Shown here: piece by piece, positions 15,902 to 23,244 of the stretch
Layout of the letters: every line of letters begins with the position of its first letter
How positions within the stretch are numbered: the stretch's first letter is position 1
Source of the DNA: Thermanaeromonas sp. C210
GTDB taxonomy: Bacteria; Bacillota; DSM-521; Neomoorellales; Neomoorellaceae
DNA: 64,000 bases
Assembly (NCBI RefSeq): GCF_013167955.1
Contig: NZ_BLWF01000003.1
Location: 1 to 64,000 of the forward strand
Direction: 5' to 3'
Made by a program: the position numbers and the translations under genes
The notes under the pieces: model-generated
The model's database searches: none
What the model was told of the DNA's origin: nothing
Seen by the model: the letters and a program-made list of their open reading frames with translations, nothing else

Positions 15902-16420
15902 ATGTCGTGTTTAAAGGACGAAATTCGGGAAATTATTGGGCACCACCAAGGACAAGTTTCCCATCTGATCGCCATACTGCAGGAAGTTCAGCAGAAATAC
16001 CGGTACCTGCCGGAGGAAGCCTTGGAGGTTATTGCCGGTGATTTGCACATTTCCCCGGCAGTGGTGTGGGGTGTAGCCACCTTTTACGCCCAGTTTTCGT
16101 TAAAACCCAAGGGCAAATATACTATCCGGATCTGTAACGGTACGGCCTGTCACGTGCGGGGAGCGGCCCAGATTCACGAAGCCTTGTGCAAAGAGCTGCA
16201 ACTCAAGGAAGGGGAAAACACCACCGCAGACCTGGAGTTTACGGTGGAGACAGTCTCCTGTCTGGGGGCCTGCGGCCTGGCACCTGTTATGACCATTAAT
16301 GACAATGAAGTTCACGGCCAATTGACTCCCGAAGGGGCTGTCTCCATCGTGCGAGGGTTGAAGGTGAAGGCTGCGGAAGAGGAGAAGGAGAAGGTCCGGG
16401 GGAGGGACCATGTTGCTTAA
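15902..16420 (+). CDS. hydC: HydC, NuoE-like thioredoxin-fold [2Fe-2S] subunit of bifurcating hydrogenase
   Basis: A 172-residue NuoE-type subunit. Residues ~20-70 form the helical N-terminus (LIAILQEVQQKYRYLPEEAL ... VWGVATFYAQF); the [2Fe-2S] ligands are C-N-G-T-A-C and CLGACGLAPVM. The ATG at 15902 follows GGGGGAGGAGGAAACC; an upstream in-frame TTG at 15881 is not used because the ribosome site lies between. In HydABC complexes it passes electrons near the NAD(H) site. It overlaps hydB by 11 bases. Confidence 0.93.
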   Translation: MSCLKDEIREIIGHHQGQVSHLIAILQEVQQKYRYLPEEALEVIAGDLHISPAVVWGVATFYAQFSLKPKGKYTIRICNGTACHVRGAAQIHEALCKELQLKEGENTTADLEFTVETVSCLGACGLAPVMTINDNEVHGQLTPEGAVSIVRGLKVKAAEEEKEKVRGRDHVA

Positions 16421-18293
16421 GTCAAGGGAAGATTTGCAAGCCATGGCGGAGCGGGCCGAGAAAATGCTGCGAAAGGAGAAGGCTCGCATTTTAGTGTGTG
16501 CGGGAACGGGGTGTGTTGCTAACGGTTCTCTCGGTGTCTACGAGGCTTTTCACCGGGAACTGGTGCGGCGGGGGCTGGCCCATAAGGTCGAACTGCTTAG
16601 AGAAGGGGAGGGGGCCGGGCTAGCCTTAAACATCAGCGGCTGCCACGGCTTTTGCCAGATGGGTCCCCTGGTGCGTTTGGAGCCGGAGGGAGTCCTCTAC
16701 TGTAAAGTAAAACCAGGAGACGTACCGGAAATAATCGAGGAACACCTTCTCCAGAATCGGCCGGTGGAGCGCCTCCTTTACCACCACCCGGCTACCGGAC
16801 AAGCTGTACGCAGGGAGGACGACATCCCCTTTTATAAGAAACAGCGACGGGTGGTTTTGGAGCACTGCGGCCGTATTAACCCGGAGGATCCCTATGACTA
16901 CCTGGCCCACGGCGGTTACCAAGCCCTGGCCAAAGCCCTGTTTGAAATGACGCCGGAGGAAGTCATTCAGGAGATCCACGAGGCTGGCCTGCGCGGGCGG
17001 GGCGGGGGCGGTTTCCCCACGGGTAAGAAATGGGCCCTGGCCCGGTCGGAAGCGGGGGGCCCGAAGTATATCATTTGCAACGGCGACGAGGGCGACCCGG
17101 GCGCCTTTATGGATCGCAGCGTCATGGAAGGCGACCCCCACCGGGTGCTGGAGGGCATGCTCATTGCAGGTTACGCCATCGGGGCCCAGGAAGGCTATGT
17201 TTACGTTCGGGCCGAATATCCCCTGGCGGTAAAGAGGTTGCGCAAGGCCGTGGCCGATGCCGAAGACCTGGGGCTGTTAGGTGACCGCATTCTGGGGAGC
17301 CCCTTTTCCTTTAAGGTGCATATCAAGGAAGGAGCCGGTGCCTTTGTCTGCGGGGAAGAAACCGCCCTGATCGCGTCCATAGAGGGCCAGCGGGGCATGC
17401 CCCGTCCCCGGCCGCCTTATCCGGTCCAGAGGGGGCTGTGGGGTTGCCCCACGGTCATCAACAACGTAGAAACCCTGGCCAACGTGGCGCCCATTATCAT
17501 GCACGGCGCCGGCTGGTTCAGACAATGCGGAACTCCCACCAGTCCCGGCACTAAGACCTTCGCCCTGGCCGGGCAGGTGGCTCATACCGGCCTGGTAGAG
17601 GTGCCCCTAGGCATGAGCCTCCGGGAGGTGGTTTTTGAAATAGGTGGAGGTCCGCGGGAAGGCCGTGGTTTTAAGGCGGTGCAGATCGGGGGACCCTCCG
17701 GGGGATGCCTCACCGCCGAGCACCTGGATTTGTCCCTGGACTTCGATTCTCTCCAGAAGGCAGGAGCCATGGTGGGATCGGGAGGGCTCGTAGTCCTGGG
17801 GCAGGATAGCTGTATGGTGGAAGTGGCCAGATTCTTCATGGGTTTTGTCCAGGATGAATCCTGCGGCAAATGCGTCCCCTGCCGGGAAGGTACGAAGCGC
17901 ATGCTCGAGCTGCTGGATAAGATCGTCGCCGGCGACGCCACCGAAGAAGATATGGACCTGCTGGAAGAGCTGGCCCTGGTGGTGAAGGACGGCGCCCTCT
18001 GCGGGCTGGGCAAGACGGCTCCGAACCCTGTGCTAACCACTCTGCGCTATTTCAGGGAAGAATATGAAGCGCACATTAAGGATAAAAGGTGTCCCGCAGG
18101 GGTCTGCCGGGGACTGTTGCGTTACTTCATCAACGTAGAAAAGTGCCGAGGGTGCAGCCTATGTGCCCGGAGTTGTCCGGTAAAGGCCATTACCGGGGAG
18201 AGAAACCATCCCCATACCCTGGACCAGGAGAAATGTATCCGGTGCGGGACTTGCCTGGAAGTATGCCGGTTCAATGCGGTGTATACGGCCTGA
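16410..18293 (+). CDS. hydB: HydB, NuoF-like FMN/NAD(P)-binding subunit of bifurcating hydrogenase
   Basis: The 627-residue protein has an N-terminal thioredoxin-like [2Fe-2S] region (CAGTGCVANGS, CHGFC), the FMN/NAD Rossmann-type core (GRGGGGFPTGKKW, NGDEGDPGAFMDR, GAGAFVCGEETALIASIEG), the SLBB domain, the [4Fe-4S] site ESCGKCVPCREGT with a later Cys, and a C-terminal pair of ferredoxin clusters (CRGCSLCARSCP, CIRCGTCLEVCR). This layout is that of HydB in Thermotoga and Moorella electron-bifurcating hydrogenases, which couple H2 with ferredoxin and NAD(H). ATG overlapping hydC. Confidence 0.95.
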   Translation: MLLKSREDLQAMAERAEKMLRKEKARILVCAGTGCVANGSLGVYEAFHRELVRRGLAHKVELLREGEGAGLALNISGCHGFCQMGPLVRLEPEGVLYCKVKPGDVPEIIEEHLLQNRPVERLLYHHPATGQAVRREDDIPFYKKQRRVVLEHCGRINPEDPYDYLAHGGYQALAKALFEMTPEEVIQEIHEAGLRGRGGGGFPTGKKWALARSEAGGPKYIICNGDEGDPGAFMDRSVMEGDPHRVLEGMLIAGYAIGAQEGYVYVRAEYPLAVKRLRKAVADAEDLGLLGDRILGSPFSFKVHIKEGAGAFVCGEETALIASIEGQRGMPRPRPPYPVQRGLWGCPTVINNVETLANVAPIIMHGAGWFRQCGTPTSPGTKTFALAGQVAHTGLVEVPLGMSLREVVFEIGGGPREGRGFKAVQIGGPSGGCLTAEHLDLSLDFDSLQKAGAMVGSGGLVVLGQDSCMVEVARFFMGFVQDESCGKCVPCREGTKRMLELLDKIVAGDATEEDMDLLEELALVVKDGALCGLGKTAPNPVLTTLRYFREEYEAHIKDKRCPAGVCRGLLRYFINVEKCRGCSLCARSCPVKAITGERNHPHTLDQEKCIRCGTCLEVCRFNAVYTA

Positions 18294-18333
18294 AAAGCCG
18301 GGCCCAGGAAACTCGGAAAGAGGGAGCGGAGTT

Positions 18334-20073
18334 ATGGCTACAGGAAAAGTAACGGTAGACGGCGAAACGGTAAAGATCAACGGCGCCAAGAATCTCCTGG
18401 AAGTGGTGCGGCGGGCTGGGATCGAATTGCCCACCTTCTGCTACCACTCCGAATTAAGCGTTTACGGGGCCTGCCGCATGTGCATGGTGGAGGTAGAGGG
18501 CCAAGGGCTGGTTGCCGCCTGCTCTACGCCGCCGGCGGACGGCATGAAAATCCATACCAACACTCCCCGCACCCGGCGTCTGCGACGTATGGTGCTGGAA
18601 TTGCTGCTGGCAAACCACGAGCGGGAATGCACCACTTGTGAGCGGAGCGGAAGTTGCAAACTCCAGCAGCTGGCGCGGCGGCTGGGCGTTACCCAGGTAC
18701 GCTTCGGACAGCGGGACAAGAGGGTGCCGGTGGATAACAGTTCACCGTCCCTGGTGAATAATCCGAATAAATGTATTTTGTGCGGCGACTGCGTCCGTAT
18801 GTGCAAGGAAATCCAGGGAGTGGGAATTTGGGATTTTGCCTTTCGGGGCTCAAGGACCCGGGTGACCACTGCTTTCAACCGGCCCCTGGCGGAGGTGGGC
18901 TGCCTGAACTGCGGCCAGTGCGTGGCTGTTTGCCCTACCGGCGCCCTGGCCGTAAAATCGGAAATCAACCTGGTGTGGTCGGCCTTACAAGACCCTGACC
19001 GCATGGTAGTAGTCCAGGTGGCCCCGGCGGTGCGGGTGGCCATCGGAGAGGAATTCGGCTTGAAGCGCGGCGAGGCATCCACGGGACGGATGGTAGCTGC
19101 CTTAAAGAAGCTGGGCTTTGATCGGGTCTTCGATACCACCTTTACCGCAGACATGACCAGCATTGAAGAGGCCATGGAACTGCTTCAACGCCTGGAAACG
19201 GGCGAGAAGCTGCCCCTCTTCACCTCCTGCTGCCCGGCCTGGGTTAAGTACGCCGAGCAGTTCCACCCGGAGCTTTTGGATAATCTCTCCACTTGCCGTT
19301 CGCCCCAGCAGATGTTCGGCTCTCTGGTAAAGAAGCACTACTGCCGAGAAATAGGAAAAGGCCCCCGGGAGATAGTCTGCGTATCAATTATGCCGTGCAC
19401 GGCCAAGAAATTCGAAGCTAGGAGAACGGAGTTCACTACGGACGGCGTCCGGGATGTAGATTTCGTCCTTACCACGGTGGAACTGGCTCAGATGATTAAG
19501 GAAGCCGGAATTGTTTTCGCCGACTTGGAACCCGAAGCATTTGACAATCCCTTAGGGGTAGGCTCTGGTGCCGGCATAATCTACGGCGCCTCGGGCGGGG
19601 TAATGGAATCGGTGGTACGTTTCCTTTACGGCTACCTTACGGAGGCCGACGAAGTAGGCAGAGTGAACTTTTATCCCGCGAGGGGGATGGAGGGTATTAA
19701 GGAAGCCCAAGTGGATATTCAGGGGCAAAGGCTTAGGCTTGCCATTGTAAACGGGCTGGTCCGGGCCGAAGAACTGATCCAACGCCTCCGGAGGGGTGAA
19801 GTCTTTTATCATGCCGTAGAGGTCATGGCCTGCCCGGGAGGATGCCTGGGAGGCGGCGGCCAGCCGGTGCCCAATGACACTGCCGCCCGGCTGGAACGCA
19901 TGAAAGGCCTCTACCGGCTGGACAGGGGAGAACAGCTCCACAAGCCCCAGGATAATATTTTTGTGACCAGGGCCTTTGAACGCTGGTTTGGCGGCTGGGC
20001 CAATGCCCGCACCCATAGGGATTTGCATACCCGTTATCAACCACGCCGGGCACTGAGTTGTTCCATTTCTTGA
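18334..20073 (+). CDS. hydA: HydA, catalytic [FeFe]-hydrogenase subunit (group A, bifurcating type)
   Basis: At 579 residues it contains, in order, a plant-type [2Fe-2S] domain (CYHSELSVYGACRMC), the His-containing cluster site HERECTTCERSGSCKLQ, two [4Fe-4S] sites (CILCGDCVRMCKE, CLNCGQCVAVCP), and the H-cluster domain with all three signatures: TSCCPAW, MPCTAKKFE and MACPGGCLGGGGQP. The proton-relay cysteine (first Cys of TSCCP) is present, so it should be active. The ATG at 18334 follows GGGAGCGGAG; a longer frame from 18274 only adds unconserved residues. It should work with HydB and HydC in reversible bifurcating H2 metabolism. Confidence 0.95.
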   Translation: MATGKVTVDGETVKINGAKNLLEVVRRAGIELPTFCYHSELSVYGACRMCMVEVEGQGLVAACSTPPADGMKIHTNTPRTRRLRRMVLELLLANHERECTTCERSGSCKLQQLARRLGVTQVRFGQRDKRVPVDNSSPSLVNNPNKCILCGDCVRMCKEIQGVGIWDFAFRGSRTRVTTAFNRPLAEVGCLNCGQCVAVCPTGALAVKSEINLVWSALQDPDRMVVVQVAPAVRVAIGEEFGLKRGEASTGRMVAALKKLGFDRVFDTTFTADMTSIEEAMELLQRLETGEKLPLFTSCCPAWVKYAEQFHPELLDNLSTCRSPQQMFGSLVKKHYCREIGKGPREIVCVSIMPCTAKKFEARRTEFTTDGVRDVDFVLTTVELAQMIKEAGIVFADLEPEAFDNPLGVGSGAGIIYGASGGVMESVVRFLYGYLTEADEVGRVNFYPARGMEGIKEAQVDIQGQRLRLAIVNGLVRAEELIQRLRRGEVFYHAVEVMACPGGCLGGGGQPVPNDTAARLERMKGLYRLDRGEQLHKPQDNIFVTRAFERWFGGWANARTHRDLHTRYQPRRALSCSIS

Positions 20074-20419
20074 TTTCTGGTCTGCTTGGCTTGGGCTCGC
20101 TCTCATAGTTTCTCTCGCGGGGGCCGGACTCTTGCTCGGCCTTAAAGGTTCAGGCGGGGCTCCCAGACCGGTGGACGTCCATGGCGACTAGGCCCGTCTC
20201 CGTCTCCGGCCCCCGACCCTCGACCCGCCTTCCCTTCGGGCAAAGCTCAGGTGGGGTTGTCGCCAGTTGCTCGCCTCTTTCCCAGCCCAAGGAGGCGTTG
20301 TCGCAAGAAAGTGACAAGGCAGCGGCGGTGTACCGAAGAGAATAATACAAAATTCTGTCTCGCCTTCCGGTTCGATGTATCGTATAATAGTGATGAAAGC
20401 AACAGAAGGGGGAGAAGGC
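20074..20419. other. Non-coding gap between hydA and the composite regulator
   Basis: GC-rich sequence with short dyads but no convincing gene and no U-tailed terminator for hydCBA, so readthrough from the hydrogenase operon into the regulator is possible. A perfect TATAAT lies at 20383-20388, about 32 bases before the regulator GTG; the matching -35 region is poor. The octamer GTTGTCGC occurs twice (near 20257 and 20297). Confidence 0.5.
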
Positions 20420-22678
20420 GTGTCGGGCATTGTGAAAGTAATCACTGGTAAATGCCGCATGTGTTACGCTTGTATACGCAACTGCCCGGTAAAGGCTATT
20501 AAAGTAGTGGACGGGCAGGCCCAGGTGGTGCCGGAGCTCTGCATATCCTGCGGCCACTGCGTACAGGTCTGTGCGCAAAAGGCTAAATTGGTAGAAAGTG
20601 AAATAGAAAAAGTCAATAGTTATTTGCAGAACGAAAGGGTGGCGGCCTGTCTGGCCCCTTCCTTTGTGGCCGAATTTCACCCGGCATGGCCCGGGCAGGT
20701 GATATCCGCCCTGCGCCGTATGGGTTTTGCCGAAGTCCACGAGGTTGCTTTCGGTGCTCACCTGGTTACCCAGGAGTACCTGAAGTATCTCGAGGAAATG
20801 GGGGACCGGCAGGGCCTCATTACCACTCCCTGTCCCGCGGTAGTTAACCTGGTGGAGAAGTTTTTCCCCCGCTTGATTTCCCAACTGGTCCCCATAGTCT
20901 CCCCGGCCATCGCCCTGGGCAGGTATTTAAAAAAGACCCGAGGTCCGGCCTTGAAGGTGGTGTTCATCGGGCCCTGTGTAGCCAAGAAAGCCGAAATTCG
21001 GGACGAGGAAGTAGCCGGGGCCGTAGACGCCGTCCTTACCTTTGCGGAATTCCGGGAGATGTTGCGGGAAAGGGGATTAGAAATATCGGCTCAGGAGGAC
21101 GGTGAATTCGACAGTCCTCCTCCCCACTTTGGCCGGCTGTATCCCATAGGGGGCGGCCTGCTGCGCAGCGCCGGGATCCTGCCGGACATCCTGGAAAGCC
21201 GGGTACTGGTGGTGGAAGGACGGGAGGAATGCCTGGAATTCCTGCGGGCCGTTAACGAAGGGAAAATGGTACCCCAGGTAGCCGACATGCTCTTCTGTAA
21301 GGGCTGTATCAACGGGCCTGCGATAGAAAACGAGTATTCTTCCTTCCGTCGCCGGCGCATCGTGGCGGAATTTGCCCACAGGGGCTTGGAGCAGGTGTCT
21401 GACGGCGGAGAAGAGGCCATGGAGGAGCTTGATCTCCGCAGGGAGTTCCGGGATCGGAGCGTACACTTACCGCGACCGAGCGAAGCAGACATTCGCGCCA
21501 TAATGGCCGAACTGGGGAAGATGGGACCGGAGGACGAACTGAACTGCGGAGCGTGCGGTTACCCTTCTTGCCGGGATAAGGCCATTGCCGTATATCGAGG
21601 TCTGGCGGAAAACGAAATGTGCCTTCCCTATCTTATCTTGCAATTACAAAAGAGCAATTTGCGGCTGCGCCAGGAACTAAAGACGGTTCGCGGCCAGTTC
21701 GGCCAGTTGGTAGGCAAGAGCACGGCCATGCAGGAAGTTTATCGCCTGATTGAAAAGGTGGCTCCCACCGATGCCACCGTTCTCATCCGGGGAGAGAGTG
21801 GCACCGGGAAGGAGTTGGTGGCCCGGGCCATCCACTACCGCAGCCTGCGCAGCGAGGCCCCCTTTGTGAGTATCAATTGCGCCGCTCTGCCGGAAAATCT
21901 GCTGGAAAGCGAGCTCTTCGGCCATGCCCGGGGTGCCTTTACCGGTGCCGTAGCCGCTAAGAAGGGCCTGTTTGAAGAGGCCCACGAAGGGACGCTGTTT
22001 CTGGACGAGATTGGAGATATAAGCCTATCCCTCCAGGCCAAGCTCCTTCGTGTCCTCCAAGAGGGAGAGTTTATCCGCATAGGGGAAACGAGGCCGCGGC
22101 GGGTGGACGTACGGATTATTGCGGCTACTAACCGGGATCTGGAAGGGGCCATTAAAGAGGGGAGTTTCCGCCCGGAGTTGTTCTACCGTTTGAATGTGAT
22201 TACCCTTTGGCTGCCTCCCTTACGGGAACGGAGGGACGATATTCCGCTCCTGGCGCGCCATTTCTTGGAACAGGCCTGCCAGCGGCTGGGCAAGGATATA
22301 AAAGGCTTCACCGCGGAAGCCATGGACGCCCTGATCCGGGCCGACTGGCCGGGCAACGTCCGGGAACTGGAGAATGTCATCGAGCGGGCCGTCATATTAT
22401 GTGAAGGCAATCGCATAGAGCTGACCGACCTGCCCCGGGACCTGCGCAACAGGGCGGCTAATGCAGCGGGGTGGGCCTATACCCAGGGAATGACCTTTAG
22501 AGAAGCGGTGGAGGCCTACGAAGTCCAACTCCTCATCAAGGCCCTGGAAGAGAGCAAATGGGTGCAGGCCCGGGCGGCCGAAATTTTAGGATTGAAGCGC
22601 AGCACCCTCAATGAGATGCTTAAGAGGTACCGCCTATTGCCCAAAATGGCCAAGAGGTATTCGGAAAACCGGAGATAG
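20420..22678 (+). CDS. Composite regulator: ferredoxin + sensory [FeFe]-hydrogenase-like domain fused to sigma-54 AAA+ activator
   Basis: The 752 residues read in order: two [4Fe-4S] sites (Cys 12/15/18/22 and 41/44/47/51); an [FeFe]-hydrogenase H-domain-like region (~70-300) with TTPCPA (Cys138), GPCVAKKAE (Cys186) and CKGCINGP (Cys293/296); a further Fe-S domain NCGACGYPSC (376-384, Cys401); a helical linker; a sigma-54 AAA+ domain with Walker A GESGTGKE (458-465), GAFTGA and FLDEIGD; and a Fis-type helix-turn-helix at the end. The proton-relay Cys of TSCCP is Pro here, as expected for a sensor rather than a catalyst. GTG at 20420 follows GGGGGAGAAGG; a longer frame from 20375 would include the -10 box. 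Probably an H2- or redox-controlled activator. Confidence 0.9.
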   Translation: MSGIVKVITGKCRMCYACIRNCPVKAIKVVDGQAQVVPELCISCGHCVQVCAQKAKLVESEIEKVNSYLQNERVAACLAPSFVAEFHPAWPGQVISALRRMGFAEVHEVAFGAHLVTQEYLKYLEEMGDRQGLITTPCPAVVNLVEKFFPRLISQLVPIVSPAIALGRYLKKTRGPALKVVFIGPCVAKKAEIRDEEVAGAVDAVLTFAEFREMLRERGLEISAQEDGEFDSPPPHFGRLYPIGGGLLRSAGILPDILESRVLVVEGREECLEFLRAVNEGKMVPQVADMLFCKGCINGPAIENEYSSFRRRRIVAEFAHRGLEQVSDGGEEAMEELDLRREFRDRSVHLPRPSEADIRAIMAELGKMGPEDELNCGACGYPSCRDKAIAVYRGLAENEMCLPYLILQLQKSNLRLRQELKTVRGQFGQLVGKSTAMQEVYRLIEKVAPTDATVLIRGESGTGKELVARAIHYRSLRSEAPFVSINCAALPENLLESELFGHARGAFTGAVAAKKGLFEEAHEGTLFLDEIGDISLSLQAKLLRVLQEGEFIRIGETRPRRVDVRIIAATNRDLEGAIKEGSFRPELFYRLNVITLWLPPLRERRDDIPLLARHFLEQACQRLGKDIKGFTAEAMDALIRADWPGNVRELENVIERAVILCEGNRIELTDLPRDLRNRAANAAGWAYTQGMTFREAVEAYEVQLLIKALEESKWVQARAAEILGLKRSTLNEMLKRYRLLPKMAKRYSENRR

Positions 22679-22698
22679 TTCAAAAAAGCGAACCCAAC

Positions 22699-22727
22699 GC
22701 CCCTGCCAGTCAGGGGCCTTTATTATT
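22699..22727 (+). terminator. Intrinsic terminator after the composite regulator
   Basis: GCCCCTG (22699-22705) pairs with CAGGGGC (22711-22717), loop CCAGT, tail CTTTATTATT. It separates the regulator transcript from the sigma-54 unit downstream. Confidence 0.85.
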
Positions 22728-22749: not shown

Positions 22750-22837
22750 GAGTCCTGGGATTCACCTATTTGAACCTTCTGCCGACAGGAGACCCCGGGG
22801 GGCCAAGGAAGAGAAAGCCCCCGACTCTTGTATAAAC

Positions 22838-22853
22838 TGGCACGAAACTTGCA
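22838..22853 (+). promoter_or_regulatory. Sigma-54 (-24/-12) promoter, perfect consensus
   Basis: TGGCACGAAACTTGCA matches the TGGCACG-N4-TTGCW consensus at every fixed base with the required GG to GC spacing. Transcription would begin near 22864, leaving a ~160-base leader before the ATG at 23023. I looked for TGGCAC elsewhere in the window and found no other copy with a correctly spaced TTGC. Confidence 0.88.
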
Positions 22854-23022
22854 ATACAACCTACATGCAAGGCGAAAGTTTCACAAACCGTTCGGTCCCT
22901 TTTAGGAGCTACTGGGGGTTAATTATCAACCACATAGCGAGAGAAATTCTAAATTAAATAAAGACTATGTTAAAATGATTCCATAGGACGAACGGGTAAA
23001 CTTCAAGGGGAGGAAATTACCT

Positions 23023-23217
23023 ATGGCGAGGGCAGTAAAGGCGTGGGAGCGCGGGGAGCCAGAATGGGATGTGCTGAGCCCCGAGGAATTAAATGAGGCT
23101 TATGCCAGGCTGGAAGAACGGTATAACGGGTTGAGGTCTAACTGGGAGTGGTTCGTAAAGGAAGACAACCGGATCGATAGAACTGCCGGCGTTCTTCGAA
23201 GAGTAGATGAGAACTGA
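23023..23217 (+). CDS. Unrecognised 64-residue protein of the sigma-54 unit
   Basis: The ATG follows a strong AAGGGGAGGAAATTACCT site, and the stop is directly followed by a terminator, so this is a well-formed one-gene unit. The product is hydrophilic, mixed-charge and mostly helical by composition, with no membrane span, signal peptide or cysteine. Four tryptophans stand out (WERGEPEWDV near the start and NWEWFVKEDNR in the middle), along with LSPEELNEAYARLEERY, a helix-forming stretch. I do not recognise the family. Its placement suggests it is the direct output of the neighbouring hydrogenase-like activator; a structural adaptor or modulator role is only a guess. Confidence 0.75.
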   Translation: MARAVKAWERGEPEWDVLSPEELNEAYARLEERYNGLRSNWEWFVKEDNRIDRTAGVLRRVDEN

Positions 23218-23244
23218 GGCGCGACCCGTCGCGCCCTTTATTTT
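23218..23244 (+). terminator. Intrinsic terminator of the small sigma-54 unit
   Basis: GGCGCGAC (23218-23225), CC loop, GTCGCGCC (23228-23235), tail CTTTATTTT. It starts on the base after the stop codon. Confidence 0.88.

Follow-up and report, generated by a model that had tools for sequence, protein, structure and literature searches.

What does a hydrogenase-like activator control when a perfect sigma-54 promoter beside it leads only to a gene of 64 codons? This arrangement was found in a 64,000-nucleotide stretch of DNA from Thermanaeromonas sp. C210 (below, the window). The account that we favor, with a probability of about 0.6, is that the product of 20375-22678 is a one-protein sensor-activator, whose hydrogenase-like, iron-sulfur-rich N-terminus would sense H2 or redox state. 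Its AAA+ and HTH parts would bind palindromes 77 to 160 nt upstream of the sigma-54 promoter at 22838-22853 and open it. The sole product of this promoter would be the 64-residue protein, made in the window's family also from a sigma-A type promoter. Most likely this protein would be a trans-acting partner or small modulator of the [FeFe] hydrogenase HydABC, alone or in a complex with the sensor. The account is built on sequence comparisons, and the predicted wiring of activator to promoter is well supported by them. The features of the locus are as follows.

20375-22678, plus strand: activator gene, encoding two ferredoxin-type [4Fe-4S] motifs, an [FeFe]-hydrogenase H-domain, a Cx2Cx4Cx16C motif, a sigma-54 AAA+ domain (GAFTGA) and a Fis-type HTH
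22679-22692: degenerate distal candidate activator site TTCAAAAAAGCGAA, placed like the distal palindromes in relatives, which lie at about -145 to -179 relative to the box
22699-22717, plus strand: terminator of the activator gene
22761-22774: candidate activator site (UAS) TTCACCTATTTGAA, a TNCA-N6-TGNA palindrome 77 nt upstream of the box
22838-22853, plus strand: sigma-54 -24/-12 promoter TGGCACGAAACTTGCA, from the pattern search and kept in relatives
22966-22976, plus strand: extended -10 box TATGTTAAAAT of sigma-A type within the leader, conserved in the family
23006-23013, plus strand: ribosome binding site AGGGGAGG, by direct reading
23023-23217, plus strand: 64-codon gene (SML), from profile searches and alignments A1-A6
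23218-23235, plus strand: terminator-like stem of the small gene, beginning on the base after the stop codon

An earlier, sequence-only reading of this DNA had described the promoter as a perfect -24/-12 consensus, and it indeed shows 0 mismatches, with correct spacing of the GG and GC elements; the transcript is predicted to start near 22864, about 12 nt beyond the GC of the -12 element. Its statement that the window holds no other correctly spaced sigma-54 site agrees with our pattern search, in which this was the one exact match in 64 kb (0.03 expected). With up to two mismatches we obtained 11 sigma-54-like matches against 7.6 expected, the other 10 being at chance level. Both gene boundaries described there were borne out as well, namely an upstream activator gene that ends in its own terminator and a well-supported small gene with a terminator directly after its stop.

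The genome (2.68 Mb in 19 contigs) contains one copy of rpoN, the gene on which the proposed control depends, and ten full-length sigma-54 activators. The regulon search consisted of pattern searches of the genome and gave seven exact TGGCACG-N4-TTGC sites, that is six in addition to that of the window. By our own reading of the site and domain lists, an activator domain lies no more than about 1.5 kb upstream of five of the seven. As the exact sites are thus found mostly just after activator genes, they suggest a pattern of one activator and one local promoter. By ORF reading, one exact box precedes a CooC-like ATPase gene followed by carbon monoxide dehydrogenase (G000:C3:199187, L004), another faces a gene for an acetoin-dehydrogenase-like E1 (C4:437447, L006) and a third faces a dipeptidase-like gene (C4:446866, L007). 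A further exact box (C1:15948, L001) stands before a sugar-acid kinase-like gene.

Pfam and NCBIfam scans of the activator detected the domains Fer4, Fe_hyd_lg_C, FeS, Sigma54_activat (1.1e-73) and HTH_8 (1.2e-9). Its AAA+ motifs are GESGTGKE at residue 473, GAFTGA at 520 and LFLDEIGD at 541. With Walker A and B, GAFTGA, an HTH and a candidate upstream site, the protein has the predicted make-up of a sigma-54 enhancer-binding protein. In the sensor part, the N-terminal [4Fe-4S] cysteines C27/30/33/37 and C56/59/62/66 are invariant, and the C-terminal Cx2Cx4Cx16C motif reads CGACGYPSCRDKAIAVYRGLAENEMC at 391. The proton-transfer cysteine C299 is lost (TTPCPA at 150 vs. TSCCPAW in HydA). The presumed H-cluster cysteines C153, C201, C308 and C311 are invariant, the last pair being CxxC and not CxxxC. 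This third motif (residues 308-311 of the window activator) reads C-x-G-C in all sensor-clade members in which it could be located; the catalytic HydA of the window has C-x-x-G-C, one residue more, and the shortening makes an intact H-cluster in the sensor uncertain. The sensor domain was also modeled, but at a mean pLDDT of 58.6 the structure was too poor for judging the H-cluster ligands and was set aside. Two relatives (G006 and G011; L123 and L124) carry a second hydrogenase-domain sigma-54 activator, 49% identical, with neither box nor palindrome behind it.

The sensor part resembles the putative sensory [FeFe]-hydrogenases of groups C and D (TmHydS, TamHydS), which share the N-terminal [4Fe-4S] pair, an H-domain without C299 and the C-terminal Cx2Cx4Cx16C motif (PMC8163306). 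Unlike these proteins, which are PAS-linked or stand alone, the window sensor is fused directly to a sigma-54 activator, has the CxGC third motif and comes with a defined candidate target promoter. The TmHydS type (group C) has a PAS domain, whereas none was present in the activator among the best 25 of 34 Pfam families.

We next consider where the activator may bind. We counted 14-base palindromes of the form TNCA-N6-TGNA upstream of the sigma-54 boxes in 20 loci from six families: 19 loci have them, 36 in total, while shuffled sequences gave 0.95 on average and at most 4. In the remaining locus a palindrome lies at about -210, just beyond the counted stretch. None was seen at ten other sites in the genome of the window that resemble sigma-54 promoters, and the palindrome is likely the expected activator binding site. 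When palindrome and box were searched together in 18 family genomes, matches were obtained in 12, and the sole intergenic one in each genome was the small-gene promoter. Extra matches in G010, G012 and G016 all lie within ORFs and were rejected. Because the combination is unique outside coding sequence and the palindrome is missing at the ten other sites, these results suggest that the activator's sigma-54 regulon in the window's family may be this single promoter. The identical box at C4:437447 was considered as a second target of the same activator and discarded, as it has no palindrome upstream and serves a different gene.

Comparison with relatives showed the same unit. The order activator, sigma-54 box, small gene and U32 peptidase is found in 12 genomes with an intact small gene, and MutS2 comes next wherever the examined stretch reaches that far. 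Activator, palindromes, box and small gene are all kept in these 12/12 family genomes, with 0 to 2 mismatches in the box; the activator orthologs of 12 relatives are 75-83% identical. A scan of related genomes had been proposed for this combination of regulator, sigma-54 site and small gene, and the combination is therefore a constant of the family wherever the gene is intact. Together with rpoN and with palindromes at the distance of activator sites, it supports the earlier proposal that the hydrogenase-like activator controls the small-gene unit; judged from these data, the adjacent regulator very probably switches on the small-gene promoter.

The hydrogenase genes upstream are less constant and were not found beside the activator in every relative. 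In the window, the hydrogenase next to the activator (16410-20073) is a divergent paralog, its HydA being only 48% identical to the HydA that relatives keep there. The family's usual hydCBA (93% to Moorella) lies on another contig (L201, G000 C2:199000-216000). Since these neighbors vary and activator and small gene persist, the latter two form the stable unit. About 316 nt before hydC in L201 there is a palindrome, TCCAAAAATATGAA, without a sigma-54 box. Control of the hydrogenase by the activator through palindromes upstream of hydC was considered; such a palindrome has the matching place only in G000 and G006, lies elsewhere in G009 and is missing in most relatives, and we left this as a lead.

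One relative departs from the rule. In Moorella thermoacetica DSM 21394 (G009, L085, C2 about 140230-140500) a deletion has removed the box, the leader and the first part of the small gene, the remainder of which is frameshifted; the palindromes are kept and the activator is intact despite the loss of the promoter. Loss of the site in relatives that keep the regulator had been named as evidence against control; the site is kept in the 12 family genomes and lost in this one, where the small gene is broken too. As judged from this deletion and frameshift, the small protein is dispensable in this strain. That it lives without the promoter and an intact small gene, and has kept the activator, counts against our favored account.

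The small protein carries the motif ELNxxYxxLxxxYNxLxSNWxWF and ends in R-x-(D/E)-(Q/E)-N. A predicted model of moderate quality (mean pLDDT 74) consists mainly of a long helix over residues 20-45. Conservation centers on this helix (YNxLxSNWxWF) and on the extreme C-terminal residues, running to the last one, which suggests that a free C-terminus may be used in binding. The protein belongs to no known family in Pfam or NCBIfam, its best sequence match in the PDB had an E of 0.06, and a fold search with the model gave nothing below E 4. Pfam and PDB leads (TscT, peptide YY and others) were single weak matches and were rejected.

To what, then, is the small protein linked? A first profile search found its family in 20/398 genomes of the phylum, and with divergent members added in 32/398, at E below 1e-9. 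The sensor clade, defined by 50% identity or more, is present in 34/398 by our own count from the search results. Both occur in 31 genomes, the sensor only in 3 and the small protein only in 1 (Fisher p 1.3e-41, a value that overstates the evidence, since related genomes enter as independent cases and some members of the second profile were identified through their position). Three genomes (G196, G022, G313) were not profile seeds, yet fit the pattern; in G313, the one with the small protein only, the sensor gene lies nearby in pieces. By profile search no family member was found in the sensor-clade genomes G053, G105 and G170, which also counts against our account. In G053 (L198, C27:89000-101000), what comes after sensor kinase, regulator, palindrome and sigma-54 box is another ORF, of 65 residues (MNKDLVRLEKRRSMLLDRW...RSQLF), not recognized as a member of the small-protein family.

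The pairing recurs in eight families of anaerobic bacteria and survives a change of sensor architecture, from one protein (f1, f44, f76) to a hydrogenase-domain histidine kinase with an NtrC-type regulator (f35, f36, f118, f51, f4). The small gene of f51, f4 and f118 is placed after the sigma-54 promoter and before hydB-hydA, and in several f51 loci a few bases at most separate it from hydB. That the f51 proteins are homologous to the others was concluded from bridging sequences and from position, with E 4e-8 to 6e-5 for 1000 sequences and an HHalign probability of 95%. The description of the gene as lone thus holds for the window's family and fails in those families, where it leads a hydrogenase operon. 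In five genomes of other families the small gene is present twice: the copy after the sensor has a sigma-54 box, the other has none. Four of the five second copies show by eye a good sigma-A promoter (TTGCTT, TTGCTG or TTGACT, 17 nt, TATGAT or TATTAT), and in three loci the second copy directly follows hydA. In L155 (G130:C1:607500-625500), hydA, the second small gene and a U32 peptidase, the same peptidase as in the window, stand in a row. A group A6-type [FeFe] hydrogenase was present in every tested genome carrying the small gene. Second copies away from hydrogenase (L153, G062:C62; L157, G139:C27, directly after a 2-oxoacid:ferredoxin oxidoreductase operon) count against our account.

Because gene order in other families ties the small protein to HydABC and to the sensor, it is most likely a modulator or partner of one of them. 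More tentatively, and short of even odds, the small proteins may form a family of regulators, induced by H2 or redox state, whose binding to HydABC would determine how active it is or in which direction it runs; their control would lie with a new class of sigma-54-linked, hydrogenase-derived sensors.

A different partner is conceivable. Induced by the sensor-activator, the small protein could bind it in turn and damp or reset the response, with no direct effect on hydrogenase. Single-target regulons are often autoregulatory, the small protein tracks the sensor clade closely (31/34 genomes), and it stays beside the window activator though the adjoining hydrogenase is a divergent paralog and the usual one is on another contig. 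Against such feedback, the second copies with sigma-A type promoters, some of them beside hydA, show no sign of sensor control, and in f51, f4 and f118 the gene leads the hydrogenase operon. We regard it as unlikely, though it is the strongest rival to a modulator of HydABC.

The leader, about 160 nt long, adds a second promoter to this picture. Its extended -10 box, TRTGNTA(A/C)AAT, occurs in 12/12 intact loci of the window's family and in 0/8 loci of other families; in those eight, just 47 to 128 nt separate the sigma-54 box from the start codon. As this sigma-A type box is conserved, the small gene appears to have two promoters in the window's family, the second of which would also make the small protein. 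Here, then, a single gene with both promoters appears to stand in for the two gene copies of other families, each of which has one promoter. Taken further, the leader's sigma-A promoter might make most of the transcript, leaving the gene near-constitutive in the family and sigma-54 minor or condition-bound. The retention of the -10 box in every intact family locus would fit this, but the sigma-54 box and the palindromes are equally well kept there, and outside the family the sigma-54 copy goes without an extended -10 box; we consider such dominance improbable.

Proximity to hydB in f51 might also mean that the ORF is a short leader cistron aiding hydB translation, with the window copy a relic. 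This is very improbable, as in the window's family the gene is a unit by itself, closed by its own terminator, second copies exist elsewhere, and the protein motif and exact C-terminus are kept. The sequence-only reading had named either a very small protein or the RNA itself as the target; the first is favored here, and that the leader RNA is the product that matters is scarcely credible despite its length, given that an Rfam search gave nothing above chance, that the leader folds no better than shuffled sequences (z-score 0.39), that the distance from box to start codon ranges over 47 to 263 nt across all loci, and that the protein is conserved to its end.

The favored account, in which the sensor-activator switches on a small protein that works with HydABC or its sensor, has partial parallels among known systems. 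Like enhancer-binding proteins of the NorR, PrdR and NifA type, the activator combines an AAA+ domain with GAFTGA, an HTH, upstream palindromes and a -24/-12 promoter adjoining its gene; unlike them, its sensor part is hydrogenase-like and the only target found in the family is a 64-residue protein. In H2 sensing by the regulatory [NiFe]-hydrogenase with HoxJ/HoxA, too, a hydrogenase-derived sensor and an NtrC-type regulator act on a hydrogenase operon, as they may in f51, f4 and f118; here, in contrast, the domain is of [FeFe] type, the hosts are anaerobes, and a small protein is the first or only target gene. The split sensors of other families resemble the histidine-kinase class of HydDB. 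In HydDB, classes C1 (histidine kinase), C2 (chemotaxis) and C3 (phosphatase) likewise join a putative H2-sensing hydrogenase domain to a signaling partner, and a sigma-54-linked class is not listed (PMC5037454). Our literature search found no paper on a sigma-54-linked hydrogenase sensor or on the 64-codon gene, and the main text of an M. thermoacetica transcriptome paper contains no mention that we found of either.

The role of sensory [FeFe]-hydrogenases is still called putative and their signaling unresolved (PMC8163306, PMC13104023, PMC5037454). For the protein described here, a candidate binding site, a promoter and a target can be named, all conserved across many families, and these would make H2 sensing by such proteins testable with one reporter. 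Our comparisons also point to an overlooked family of small proteins connected with HydABC-type hydrogenases in acetogens and other anaerobes. As the pairing with the sensor recurs in eight families and the small gene often leads the hydrogenase operon, the small protein is probably an unrecognized part of bacterial hydrogen metabolism.
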